Source: Thermothielavioides terrestris NRRL 8126 (taxonomy: Eukaryota; Ascomycota; Sordariomycetes; Sordariales; Chaetomiaceae). From it: 64,000 nt of DNA. Both the position numbers and the translations under genes were made by a program. The notes under the pieces are model-generated. The model worked only from the letters and a program-made list of their open reading frames with translations. It had not been told where the DNA came from and ran no database searches. This document shows, in pieces, positions 8,843 to 13,568 of the stretch. Location of the stretch: contig NC_016457.1 in assembly GCF_000226115.1 (NCBI RefSeq), positions 1,550,001 through 1,614,000 on the forward strand, read 5' to 3'. Position 1 is the stretch's first letter. The number at the start of each line of letters is the position of its first letter.

Positions 8843-10132
8843 ATGGACAAAGCAGAGCCGCAATCGCTTTTAGCCGACCACGGGCAAGCTCCCCGTGCCG
8901 TGAAGCGCGCAGCTTCCGAAGAGCCTAACGGCACCTCTGATGGCAAAAGGATCAAGACCACATCGGATGTCCAACCTCAGGCCACCGCCAGCTCGTGGAG
9001 GGTCCCTTACCCAGAAAGGGTATGTATTGCGTCCTCAAGTACCTTCTAACTGTTGCGAAGCCTTCTAACTGTTGTGCAGCCAGCGGTTGTGGAAGAACGG
9101 AATGGCGAGATCGAATTCCGAGTGGTCAACAACGATGGTGAGAGACAGAGCATCATCATCCTTACAGGCCTCAAATGCCTGTTCCAGAAGCAACTGCCGA
9201 AAATGCCTAAAGATTACATTGCACGGCTTGTCTACGATCGGAATCACCTATCGATGGCCATCATCAAGAAGCCTCTGGAGGTCATTGGCGGAATCACCTA
9301 CCGAGAGTTCCGACACCACAAGTTCGCTGAAATCGTTTTCTGCGCCGTCTCCTCGGATCAGCAGGTCAAAGGATACGGTGCCCACCTGATGGCCCATTTG
9401 AAGGATTACGTCAAAGCGACCGGGCCGGTGATGCACTTTCTTACCTATGCCGACAACTATGCGACTGGGTATTTCCAGAAACAGGGCTTCACCAAAGAAA
9501 TCACCCTCGACAAGTCCCTCTGGATGGGGTATATCAAGGACTATGAAGGAGGCACGCTGATGCAGTGCTCTATGCTTCCTCGAGTCCGCTACCTGGAGGC
9601 CGGCCGGATGCTTCTTAAGCAGAAGGAAACCGTGCTCGCCAAGATTCGGGCCCAAAGCAAAAGCCACATCGTCCATCCACCGCCCCAACAATGGGCCAAC
9701 GGCAACGTCACTCCAATCGATCCGCTGTCCATCCCTGCCATTCAGGCAACCGGCTGGTCTCCGGATATGGATGCGCTAGCGCGGGTGCCGCGCCACGGAC
9801 CTCATTTCAACGAACTCCGGCGCTTCCTGTACCAGATCCAGAACCACAAGCAGGCATGGCCGTTCCTCAATCCGGTCAACAAGGACGAGGTCCCGGATTA
9901 CTACACCGTCATTACCTCGCCCATGGATCTGTCGACCATGGAGGAGAAACTGGAGCGCGATCTCTATGCGACCCCGAGAGACATGATCGCCGATCTCAAG
10001 TTGATCTTCAGCAATTGCCGGCAGTACAATGACCCGTCAACGGTATACGCCAAGTGTGCTGCCAAGCTGGAGAAGTACATGTGGACCCTCATCAAGGAGA
10101 TCCCGGAGTGGTACGACTTGCTCGAGGAATGA
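8843..10132 (+). CDS. GCN5: Histone acetyltransferase Gcn5 (SAGA/ADA)
   Basis: Catalytic lysine acetyltransferase of SAGA/ADA, acting mainly on histone H3 tails. Two exons, 8843-9019 and 9080-10132, give 409 aa. I chose the ATG at 8843 (MDKAEPQ); the frame is open 63 nt further up but weakly conserved there. Exon 1 encodes a basic, disordered tail. The GNAT domain spans about residues 65-230, with FAEIVFCAV holding the likely catalytic Glu143 and [11 protein letters not shown] as acetyl-CoA motif A. The bromodomain spans about 305-405 ([19 protein letters not shown], then [15 protein letters not shown] with the acetyl-lysine Asn). The 60-nt intron has a duplicated 3' splice region (see findings). 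The 3' end converges with QNS1. Confidence 0.97.
9042..9079 (+). repeat. 19-bp tandem duplication of the GCN5 branch site and acceptor
   Basis: Units 9042-9060 and 9061-9079 both begin CCTTCTAACTGTTG and both end in AG, differing at two or three bases near the end. Each holds a CTAAC branch-type motif and an AG. Only the second AG (9079) keeps the Gcn5 frame. Confidence 0.9.
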
Positions 10133-10453
10133 TTTAGCTTCTTAGTGACTGTAGATCTAGCGTATTGGATTCTTTTTTTTTTTTTCTTTTCTTCTTTTTT
10201 CTTCTTTTCTTCTTTTCTTTTTTCTTTTTTCTTTTTTCTTTTTTTTTTTTTTGGACAGTCAGAAAGGAGGCGAATCTGGAGCTCAAGGAGCAGAGGGACC
10301 ACCGGGAAACTGGGGAGTCAGGAGTAGATATCGGCGGGGATGGTCTAAGTTAAATCATGTATTTAAAGAGAGCAGGGGGTTAACGAACCAGCAGCATATT
10401 GCCTACTGTGTTACAATAGATACCCGCCCCCTTTCTCTTTTCCAGGCATGAAA
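10133..10453. other. Convergent 3' region with polypyrimidine tract
   Basis: Between the ends of GCN5 and QNS1. Positions 10171-10252 are an almost pure T/C tract, which would be purine-rich in the QNS1 orientation. It is probably 3' UTR/terminator sequence for both genes; that is inference. Confidence 0.6.
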
Positions 10454-13400
10454 TCAGTGCTTCGTGCTCGCCCGCTTCTTCTCAATCTTCTCGAGCTCCA
10501 TGTCGATGCGTTTGAAGCTCCAGCTCTTCCAGAAGGGCGGGTACAGGAACGGCCGCAGATCGAAGCGGTTGTCGTCGGGTGCTGCCGACATGGTCAATCA
10601 ATCAATCGTCCACATCAACCACTGTTCTTCCCCCCCTCCCCCGCCCTCCTCTCAAGATGTTACTCACAGTAGTCGTTGCAGTGGAGCGCGGGCGTCAGCG
10701 TGGTCATCTTATGGCCTGGGTTGAACCCACCGTCAGCCAGCCAGCAAGCAAAAGCACGCACACGCGGATTCCTCCGGGTGAATGAGGAATGAGAAACGAC
10801 GCAACAAAGCGACAGCACGTACGGTTGATGGCATAGAAGTGGAAGAACTTCTTGACCTTCTCGGCCACCTGCGCGGGCGTGTAGTACGGCGCATCGTCGT
10901 CCGGCTTGCGCTCGCGGTCGGCGCTCCAGTCGTGCACCAGCCGCTGGAACATGCCGAACGGGCCGAGCTTGTTGAGCTTGCGGAGCCGGCCGAAGATGGT
11001 CAGTTCCTGGTACGTCATGCCCATGTCTACGGGCAATCTCGAGTTAGAAAGAGGGCAAGACTGGATGGACTGCCAAAGAAGGGAGGGAGGGAAGGGGGGG
11101 GGGGTGCCCTACCCGCTTCATCGCTCTGGACGTAGTCCTGTGTGATTGGTTCCTAGAAGGTGAGGTAGAGTTAGCCTTTCTGCAACAGCTATACAAGATT
11201 TGCTGGCGAGGCTTTCTTACAAGCTCGGCTGTGGGAACCGCCGTCAGGAACTCGTGGAGGCAAGGCAGGTCGAAGTTGGTTTCAGCCCATGCGATAAAGC
11301 GCTTCAGGTCCGCCTTGTCGATGGAACCGATGGGGTTCTGCGACGACGACACTGTCAGAAGTCTGATCCTCTCGTCATGTGGTGGGAACCGAGAAAACAT
11401 GGACGTACGATGTCTGCGCTCTGCAAGGAACGTTAGCCCTGAAATGGATCACGTCGGCGGCAGGATAAGACAGGTAGGTGACTTACCGAGCAGTCGTACT
11501 TGGTCAAATAGCCTCGTAGACCTAGACGTAACCATGCATTAAATCACCATGACCCTCCATCAATTTGTCTTGGAAAAAAAGGGGGCAACGTACTCTGTTG
11601 ATACGTCAGCATCAAGAAGTGTAAGCCCCTCGAGAACACTACGTACCTCGCCAACGTTAGCGCTCCCAAGCACCAACAAGCTGCCGCCACCGGGTCTCTT
11701 GCGAGCCGTGGGGAGAATCTGCCCAAACTCCTACGGCGTCAATCAGCATCACGAGTTCAGGGAACACAACGAGATAAATTGCCGCCTTACGTAGGCCGTC
11801 ACCATCCTGATTCGTGCCTGCAAGCACTGGAGCGTCAGGTTCTCCTGCACGGAGCCGCCCTCGACCTTGAACCGGGGCTCGAAGCCGACCGTGTCCACGA
11901 CGAGCTTCTTCTGCGCCTCGTAGATGTCGTCAATGTCGAGGTTGACGTGGTAGCTGCCGATGGCGGCGGAGAGGTCCCTTGCGCGCTGGCGCGTCTCGCG
12001 CGAGCTCTGCTTCTTCATGCCCATGTAGAGCGTGGTGAAGACCTGGTTGCAGAGCTCCTGCGGCGTCTTGGGCAGGACGCCCTCGTCGCCGTACCTTGCG
12101 ATGCGCTTGACGTCTTCGATCACCTGCTGGTTCCCTTCTTCGACGGCTTTCATGACGATTCGACACATGGAGTAGACGAGAACTAAACCAGACGCTTGAT
12201 GAGCATGTTCTGAAGCGGCAATACAGCGGAGGGGAAACTGAACGAACATACCGGCGGTCGCACAGGAGTCAATGCCGCCGCTCAGGGGAACCAGATAGCC
12301 CGCAGCGCCGGACCGGCGGAGATACTGTCAAGAATAGGCCGTTAGCGTCTAGCCAGCCGGGCTACAAACCACTCACTACGGACTCGACTTACATCCCAAA
12401 GGTAGCAGCCGCCGCAGAGGGCAATTTCTTCTTCGACAGGATGGTACCGCGGCTGGATGGGAAGGCTTGGGGCCTTGGACACGTCGGCGTCGTCATCCTC
12501 GGAGCTGAGCTCGAAGGGCGTCTGGATCCGCTGGTACTTGGCGGTGGACGCGGCCGCCTGGAGGCCGCGGGAGATGGCAGCGCGGTAGGACCTCACTTCC
12601 TCGAGGTCGACGGTGGCAGTGACCACCTCGACGTCGTTGAGGCTGAACTGCGACCCCTGGGCGACGACGTCGCCGTTGACAATGATCATGGCGCAGCCGT
12701 CGAAGTACAGACGCTCGCCGTCGCAGCCTTGCTGGTTCGCGTACAGGTAGACGCCGCCCGACTTGCGCGTGGCCTCCATGATCAGCTGCAGGCGGGTGTC
12801 GAGCTTCCGCAGGGTGAAGTGGCTGCCGCTGGAGTTGGTGATGATCTCCACGCCATCCAGGGCCATGTCGATGTGCGGGGCCTTGGGGGTGAAGAGCTCC
12901 TCGCAGGTCTCGGCGCCAAAGGCAGTCTCGGGGGTGGAGATGACGGCGTCGCCGAACAGGACGTGCGTCTCGCCCTGCACCTCGGCCAGCATCTTGGGCA
13001 AGTGGAAGAGCTCGGTCTCGCGGGGGCGCATCCAGGGGGTGAAGTGGCGCATCTCGCGGTAGTTGCCGTCGTTGGCGAGCCACATCTTGGGCCGGATCAG
13101 GAGGATCTTGCCGTCGAGGCAGATGACGCGGCAGTTGTACCGTAGGTTCCGGTGCAGGATCGGCACGCCGACGTCGAGGAGGATGCCGTGCGTGCTCTTG
13201 TCCAGCAGCAGCCGGCGGAGCATCTCCAGGCTGTGGGTGTAGACATCGAGCTCATGGAAGTGGTCCAGACTCGAGTAGCCGCAGATTTCCAGTTCCTAGG
13301 CCGTGTCCATGCATGGTTCAGTGACACGGAGAGAAGCGACTAGCCGATGCGCGACTTACAGGACCGACACGGAGCCGCGCCCCCGCAGCTTTTGCCTGGT

Positions 13401-13568
13401 GGATGCTCTCGATGATCCGGCCAAGGTTGCCCTCCCACTGCACAAGATGAGAGTCAGCGGGTGCTGGATGATGGCTAAGACGTGTGTATCACCGTCAACC
13501 GGCCGCTTGCTTACATCGAGAACCCATTGGTTCAAGCTGCAGGTCGCAACCGTCACAAGATGGCCCAT
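10454..13568 (-). CDS. QNS1: Glutamine-dependent NAD+ synthetase, 14 exons
   Basis: Final step of NAD+ synthesis: amidates deamido-NAD+ using Gln and ATP. Exons by splice consensus and frame: 13568-13515, 13437-13360, 13295-12393, 12324-12252, 12182-11791, 11730-11647, 11594 (1 nt), 11521-11487, 11420-11409 (12 nt), 11337-11221, 11152-11113, 11026-10823, 10715-10668, 10581-10454. They sum to 2169 nt, 722 aa; yeast Qns1 is 714 aa. The N-terminal nitrilase-type glutaminase carries the Glu (LEICGYSS), Lys ([11 protein letters not shown]) and Cys (GAETCEEL) motifs. The synthetase domain has the ATP P-loop [11 protein letters not shown], then [27 protein letters not shown] and NRFDLRPF. Without the one-nucleotide exon the frame breaks into a stop within seven codons. 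Identity is very strong; micro-exon usage is inferred. Confidence 0.95.
11594..11594 (-). other. Predicted single-nucleotide exon of QNS1
   Basis: On the minus strand the sequence reads ATCAACAG, A, GTACGT. The upstream 52-nt intron (11646-11595) has a CTGAC branch site and a CAG end. The downstream 72-nt intron (11593-11522) starts GTACGT and ends TAG. The A joins GT at the start of the next exon to form AGT (Ser) in [16 protein letters not shown], where human NADSYN1 also has Ser and yeast has Cys. Confidence 0.75.

Follow-up and report, generated by a model that had tools for sequence, protein, structure and literature searches.

QNS1 locus

The sequence window analysed, a 64,000-nucleotide stretch of the Thermothielavioides terrestris NRRL 8126 genome (RefSeq accession number NC_016457.1; coordinates 1,550,001 to 1,614,000), carries the QNS1 gene for glutamine-dependent NAD+ synthetase on the minus strand (window coordinates 10454..13568). 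The encoded protein was found to have CN_hydrolase plus NAD_synthase domains along its full length (domain profiles PF00795, 149.7 bits, and PF02540, 79.6 bits) and to score above the TIGR00552 cut-off (77.1 bits), and it aligns with human NADSYN1 (PDB 6ofb_A) over residues 1-716 (E 2.1e-252). A second copy was not found in the genome, and all 8 reported protein matches were to the gene at 10454..13568. QNS1 is essential in yeast.

The gene model has 14 exons, and 13/13 introns are of the form GT...YAG. Apart from introns 6 and 7, which are treated below, there are eleven introns of 60-107 nt, of which introns 2 and 4 do not match the looser of the branch motifs searched either. Tail to tail with QNS1 lies an open reading frame on the plus strand (9053-10132) that encodes a GNAT acetyltransferase with a bromodomain, presumably GCN5-like, and a C/T tract (plus strand, 10170-10252) is located between the two genes.

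A candidate one-nucleotide exon

Exon 6 (11647..11730, minus strand; 84 nt), placed by reading frame and homology, encodes 28 residues and ends in phase 0 with GGCGAG directly before GTACGT. Exon 8 (11487..11521, minus strand; 35 nt), placed by reading frame, begins GT-CTA (GTCTACGAGG at 11521) and encodes 11 residues following a Ser codon that it completes. Between them is an interval of 125 nt (11646-11522) ending GTCTAG, and joining the two exons leaves the coding sequence one base (modulo 3) short. A single A on the minus strand (11594..11594), flanked by CAACAG on the 5' side and by GTACGT on the 3' side (GTACGTTGCC), could supply this base. This putative exon 7 consists of one base with AG before it and GT after it, in an interval that would otherwise be excised. 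It is required for the frame and for the spacing conserved in the protein (see below), and would start the AGT codon for Ser at residue 529, a position occupied by Ser in human NADSYN1 (PDB 6ofb). It would divide the interval into a 52-nt intron 6 (11595..11646, minus strand; GTACGT...CAACAG), in which a CTGAC motif starts 15 nt before the 3' end, and a 72-nt intron 7 (11522..11593, minus strand; GTACGT...GTCTAG), in which CTRAC is absent and a TTAAT lies 21 nt upstream of the 3' end. GTACGT is also the start of QNS1 introns 9 and 12. With the A included, the coding sequence runs to 2169 nt (722 aa and the stop, 723 codons in all), with 0 internal stops.

The phase 0 end of exon 6, the TAG acceptor followed by two extra bases (GT), the lengths of the two introns, the CTGAC motif, the total of 723 codons in 14 exons and the correspondence with the human Ser had been described in the initial annotation, and all were recovered at the coordinates above and in the 6ofb alignment. 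Direct joining of exons 6 and 8, said there to lead to a stop, reads GE-VYEAI-stop, the stop being the sixth codon after GAG.

The probability of such an arrangement arising by chance was estimated from 20000 dinucleotide shuffles of the interval and from 20910 genomic 125-nt windows, a set that contains the QNS1 site itself, keeping 43 nt or more on either side. AG-N-GT by itself was frequent (3378/20000 shuffles and 2248/20910 genomic windows; 11-17%), and the consensus YAG-N-GTRNGY was rare (117/20000 and 63/20910; 0.3-0.6%), particularly with A as the single base (26/20000 and 13/20910; 0.06-0.13%). On all the evidence, it is likely, with a probability that we put at roughly 0.88, that QNS1 uses the A at 11594 constitutively as a coding exon of one nucleotide, between canonical introns of 52 and 72 nt.

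A 12-nt microexon, exon 9, encoding SADI (11409..11420, minus strand; placed by reading frame) follows exon 8, making consecutive exons of 1, 35 and 12 nt, a trio of tiny exons in a strongly conserved region of the protein.

Alternative readings of the interval

Single- and two-intron solutions were enumerated across 11646-11522 as alternative readings (ALTERNATIVES). Retention of the whole interval, of intron 6 only or of intron 7 only leads to a stop in each case. The stops described in the initial annotation are thus confirmed where the exons are joined directly or an intron is retained, but its account of other readings is incomplete, as donors shifted to +4 and +7 give open frames. A total of 22 single-intron solutions were open (6 GT-AG, 10 GC-AG and 6 AT-AC), and the nearest GT-AG solutions using the exon 8 acceptor have the donor at +4 (GTAGTG; product GEVRLRGY, one additional aa) or at +7 (GTGTTC; GEVRSLRGY, two additional aa). 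Skipping exons 7 and 8 together (1+35 = 36 nt) also keeps the frame.

A small splice-site matrix was built from the 11 other QNS1 introns, with the real sites scored leave-one-out. The natural donor scored 8.2, that of the candidate A exon 3.9, and the +4 and +7 donors 0.4 and -8.0, respectively, so that the two GTACGT hexamers are the two top-scoring GT sites in the interval. The donor of the A exon is weaker than 10/11 real donors (5.1 to 11.8; worst -1.2), and its acceptor, CAACAG, scores 0.4, which ranks it fourth of the interval's six AG sites and near the bottom of the range for real acceptors (-0.0 to 6.2). These low scores count mildly against the one-base exon.

In the reading with the +4 donor (GTAGTG, 11637..11642, minus strand), a single 121-nt GT-AG intron would extend from GTAC|GTAGTG to GTCTAG. 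The frame would then stay open as far as the natural stop, the protein gaining one residue and carrying Arg instead of Ser. The score of this donor exceeds that of the worst real QNS1 donor but falls below the other 10/11, and its +5 position is T, where 11/11 other introns have G. Upstream of 209 branch/acceptor-like tails, GTACGT was observed 9 times (2.7 expected) and GTAGTG 2 times (2.1 expected), a test that is weak because hexamers unlike donors rank equally high. Both shifted donors are disfavoured, by these features and by the protein spacing described below, and we consider the use of the +4 donor very unlikely. Unsupervised intron finding via long open frames in 264 kb produced too much noise for use.

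With introns no shorter than 35 nt and a middle exon no longer than 60 nt, 28 two-intron solutions were open, and the A exon is the only one that keeps both flanking exon edges. When the intron minimum is lowered, a different one-nucleotide exon is admitted, the second G block of GGAG|G|GTCATG, whose product, GEGLRGY, is that of the Parathielavia gene model (P0002). This G would keep the spacing, and Gly is found at the position in 5/227 scored proteins, but the second intron would be only 32 nt compared with 60-107 nt for the other eleven, the acceptor would be GAG, and the donor GTCATG scores -3.6 and is not enriched before the tails in the same weak test (1 observed, 4.8 expected), making this exon very improbable. 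Among the readings enumerated, only the A exon combines canonical GT-AG sites and introns of 35 nt or longer with a single residue between GE and LRGY.

Removal in two steps with no exon between was also considered, by a stwintron (nested intron) or another complex intron. Stwintrons occur in Pezizomycotina and, in the accessible text of two reports, undergo a pair of successive excisions at the same intron position, as the QNS1 interval would; they differ in that one intron interrupts an element of the other and nothing is retained (PMC6616335, PMC9024468). Enumeration of nested readings with an interrupted donor or acceptor and with the conserved blocks kept gave 24 solutions, none of which (0/24) has one residue between GE and LRGY, and excision of all 125 nt gives a stop. 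No enumerated QNS1 reading is thus a stwintron with the conserved spacing, and such an intron is highly unlikely here.

Spacing of the E and LRGY blocks in homologues

Intronless bacterial loci served as length markers for the junction. These were 61 loci with 58-63% identity from Candidatus Poribacteria and Chloroflexi relatives in a prokaryote genome collection, found with search patterns that took in GYLTKYDC and left out the spacing. In 61/61, exactly one residue (60 Ala, 1 Ser) lies between E and the LRGY block, and human NADSYN1 likewise has exactly one, Ser. A further 262 proteins were taken from three lists (the best 120 of each), of which 227 could be scored for the motif and 35 could not. 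One residue was present in 220/227 (133 S, 39 C, 35 A, 5 G, 4 T, 3 Q and 1 Y), and 7/227 had insertions (VS in three, and VKC, VSC, VTHLRIG and SRVC). All seven insertions were in gene models from Sordariales, namely three from Thermothelomyces and one each from Canariomyces, Humicola, Immersiella and Corynascus similis.

Five fungal proteins cross the junction without signs of splicing, with the protein match ending at the site of intron 12 or 13, and 5/5 have one residue, Ser, before LRGY. P0144 (8,581-bp contig) is 98.6% identical to the Podospora protein P0012 over 356 aa and leaves at intron 13. P0145 (17,991-bp contig), 93.3% identical to the Thermochaetoides protein P0039 over 327 positions, 21 of them gaps, continues through intron 12 before leaving at 13. 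P0146 (4,334-bp contig), with 90.5% identity to T. terrestris QNS1 over 294 aa and no gaps, enters from intron 4 and leaves at 12, where P0121 (13,721-bp contig; 82.9%) and P0085 (3,504-bp contig; 83.9%) also leave. As these proteins are read unspliced with a single Ser, the relatives that carry them seem to lack introns 5-11 and the Ser seems to be encoded there by the DNA itself; the gene-calling behind the five is not visible in the source, and none is tied to a species with the one-base exon. The +4 donor would break the spacing held in these five and in the bacterial orthologues.

Three full-length proteins (P0008, P0009 and P0010) on contigs of ~2.5 kb, shorter than the 3.1-kb QNS1 gene, agree with the one-residue Ser spacing. 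Shorter proteins were examined as possible transcript fragments, and 0/11 could be assigned to T. terrestris; the closest were reads of other species, apparently unspliced at the junction. The apparent joint absence of introns 5-11 from several Sordariales-like QNS1 genes that keep intron 12 or 13 is as expected for mRNA-mediated en bloc intron loss.

QNS1 gene models in Chaetomiaceae

The best 120 matches included 15 models from Chaetomiaceae and 105 others. We take Chaetomium (P0027, P0032) to be a member of the family, and the placement of the other genera was looked up. In a strict test within three residues, the exon 6/8 junction deviates in 11/15 Chaetomiaceae models, compared with 0-5/15 at the other eleven junctions, though the 15 are not independent as they include three Thermothelomyces and two Corynascus models. 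Outside the family 9/105 deviate, against 1-7/105 at other junctions, which is no clear excess, and the 9/105 is a lower bound because the Madurella model P0014 (GEVFESADIN; Sordariales incertae sedis, outside the 15), which looks broken at the junction, escaped the test.

The deviating models differ from one another. All three from Thermothelomyces read GEVSLRGY, the product of a donor of the +4 type, analogous to that of the +4 reading in T. terrestris and a point in favour of that reading; others have inserts of VKC, VSC or SRVC; and exon 8 is skipped in the models of Corynascus novoguineensis, Chaetomidium and Dichotomopilus, which can occur in frame because exon 8 and the one base together make 36 nt. 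The Collariella model has lost ANVGE. Such conflict among close relatives is what would be seen if the models were guesses, and it weighs against the +4 donor. In the 8/11 that retain exon 8, LRGY is preceded by S (5) or C (3), both of which can be encoded by NGT and would fit an exon 8 that begins GT-CTN, though S is also the normal residue there. The model of Chaetomium olivicolor (P0032) reads LINGQ-S at the junction, which would imply CAR-A before the donor, i.e. AG-A. Judged by the protein models, AG-A-GT may be kept in these relatives.

A twelfth case, outside the strict 11 as most of exon 6 is lost, is the model of Staphylotrichum longicolle (P0036). Its CKCWRGLRGY is what results when SANVGE, translated out of frame, runs straight into GT-CTN; the equivalent direct join in T. 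terrestris reads R*RWRGLRGY. Of the 6144 encodings of SANVGE followed by GTCTN, 16 yield exactly CKCWRGL out of frame, and the 1440 distinct stop-free shifted 6-mers are a fraction of 2.25e-5 among all possible 6-mers. It is therefore very probable that a second genus has these two exon ends, again short by one base.

A base missing at an exon edge through an assembly or sequencing error, with a plain single intron, would leave just such a one-base gap, the classic sign of an indel error. However, the same phase gap, as deduced from models of other Chaetomiaceae genera, makes a local error unlikely, the out-of-frame join in Staphylotrichum argues against it, and a consensus AG-A-GT at the right spacing would further have had to arise by chance. 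An error is thus very unlikely as the explanation, and the missing base is probably shared among Chaetomiaceae.

Normal spacing among the 15 was found in Parathielavia P0002 (G), Chaetomium globosum P0027 (S) and Thermochaetoides P0039 (S), the last of which is probably intronless at the junction (cf. P0145). Two further models were left out of the argument: Cercophora P0017, in which STSSW after GE is compatible with A|GTACN but unproven, and Bombardia P0025, which fits no simple decoding. Separately, P0022, P0023, P0024 and P0027 (Thermothelomyces, Corynascus similis and Chaetomium globosum) lack ~45 residues before intron 5, so that with the break at the junction at least P0022, P0023 and P0024 look wrong twice.

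Predicted splicing of the QNS1 transcript

If the A exon is used, the spliceosome would excise the canonical 52-nt and 72-nt introns on either side of the A, and the mature mRNA would read GGCGAG-A-GTCTACGA, encoding G-E-S-L-R and keeping the frame for the last 194 residues. With a single base separating the acceptor CAG from the donor GTACGT, the footprints would overlap, and simultaneous binding of the two sites is implausible. Stepwise splicing is thus predicted, as at a ratchet point, with one intron removed and the junction reused, and the context of the second donor would survive as the GAG of exon 6 and the CAG of intron 6 both leave AGA before it. We infer that use of the A is constitutive rather than regulated. 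According to the accessible text on Drosophila ratchet points, acceptor and donor are likewise near enough there for stepwise splicing, but they are juxtaposed and no nucleotide is left (PMC8605326); in QNS1, AG and GT do not abut directly, and one coding base would stay, the stepwise order being our deduction.

A broader history is possible, and we propose it tentatively. The exon may predate the radiation of Chaetomiaceae, and perhaps the split between Sordariales and Glomerellales, and may be recursively spliced. It would then have been erased repeatedly where introns 5-11 were lost together by an mRNA-mediated route (in the Thermochaetoides-like, Podospora-like and other unspliced genes), each loss leaving a genomic copy of the correct splice. 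Skipping of the base leads to a stop six codons on and could thereby restrain NAD synthesis in a nonsense-mediated manner.

Relationship to known one-nucleotide exons

Exons of this kind are already known, and the accessible portions of the published reports describe one in APC11 of Arabidopsis (PMC4674806) and in APC11 and VPS55 across plants, with RT-PCR and RNA-seq support (PMC8831610). The APC11 exon is, as proposed for QNS1, a constitutive lone A, and it is absent from reference annotations (PMC4674806, PMC8831610). Some lineages have intronless APC11 genes, attributed to reverse-transcription-mediated intron loss, that resemble the unspliced fungal QNS1 reads (PMC8831610). In contrast to QNS1, these are plant genes examined with reporter constructs or RT-PCR, and the intron surrounding the APC11 base is much longer (422 nt). 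Organellar one-base exons are known (PMC12308204, PMC5436844), and a regulated microexon has been reported in Trichoderma Xlr2 (PMC11121469).

In fungi, a one-nucleotide exon in Fusarium CYP621A was reported in February 2026 from RNA reads and presented as the first in fungi and the second overall (PMC12940212), a count that, in the accessible part of the report, overlooks VPS55. Like QNS1, it is a nuclear fungal gene with AG-N-GT in an over-long interval, in which the lone base restores the phase within a conserved motif and an intronless relative provides a length marker. The Fusarium base is a G in the middle of a Gly codon and was confirmed with RNA, whereas that in QNS1 is an A, the first base of a Ser codon in a gene of core metabolism, recognised from sequence. 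The proposal in the initial annotation of a fungal one-nucleotide exon is supported, with its splicing deduced, but the first fungal case is that of Fusarium. No report of a one-base exon was found in the literature on QNS1 introns in fungi, a search that had most subscription papers outside its scope.

What would be new here is the occurrence in a core-metabolism gene, apparently common to several genera of one family. If confirmed, QNS1 would apparently rank second among nuclear fungal genes with such an exon and, by the papers cited, fourth among nuclear genes, after APC11, VPS55 and CYP621A, and would be the first of these to encode an enzyme of core metabolism. It would also indicate that a spliceosome in fungi can recognise a single base from both sides when the flanking introns are 52 and 72 nt long, and that many public Chaetomiaceae QNS1 models are predicted wrongly within the NAD synthetase domain. 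Scrambling of models at one junction across related genomes would then be a cheap route to further one-base exons.

RNA-seq data from T. terrestris LPH172 have been deposited as 50-nt single reads (ENA PRJEB25201; PMC8176577), and the strain has an assembly (GCA_900343105.1). Read aligners may overlook exons of one base, as STAR is reported to have done with soybean APC11 (PMC8831610). The one-base exon predicts the cDNA joins GAGAGTCTACGA and GTTGGCGAGAGTCTACGAGG, the +4 donor predicts GAGGTACGTCTACGA and GTTGGCGAGGTACGTCTACGAGG (also written GAG-GTAC-GTCTACG), exon skipping predicts GTTGGCGAGGTCTACGAGG and the G exon GTTGGCGAGGGTCTACGAGG. GAG-GGTCTACG is a further join that would conflict with the one-base exon.
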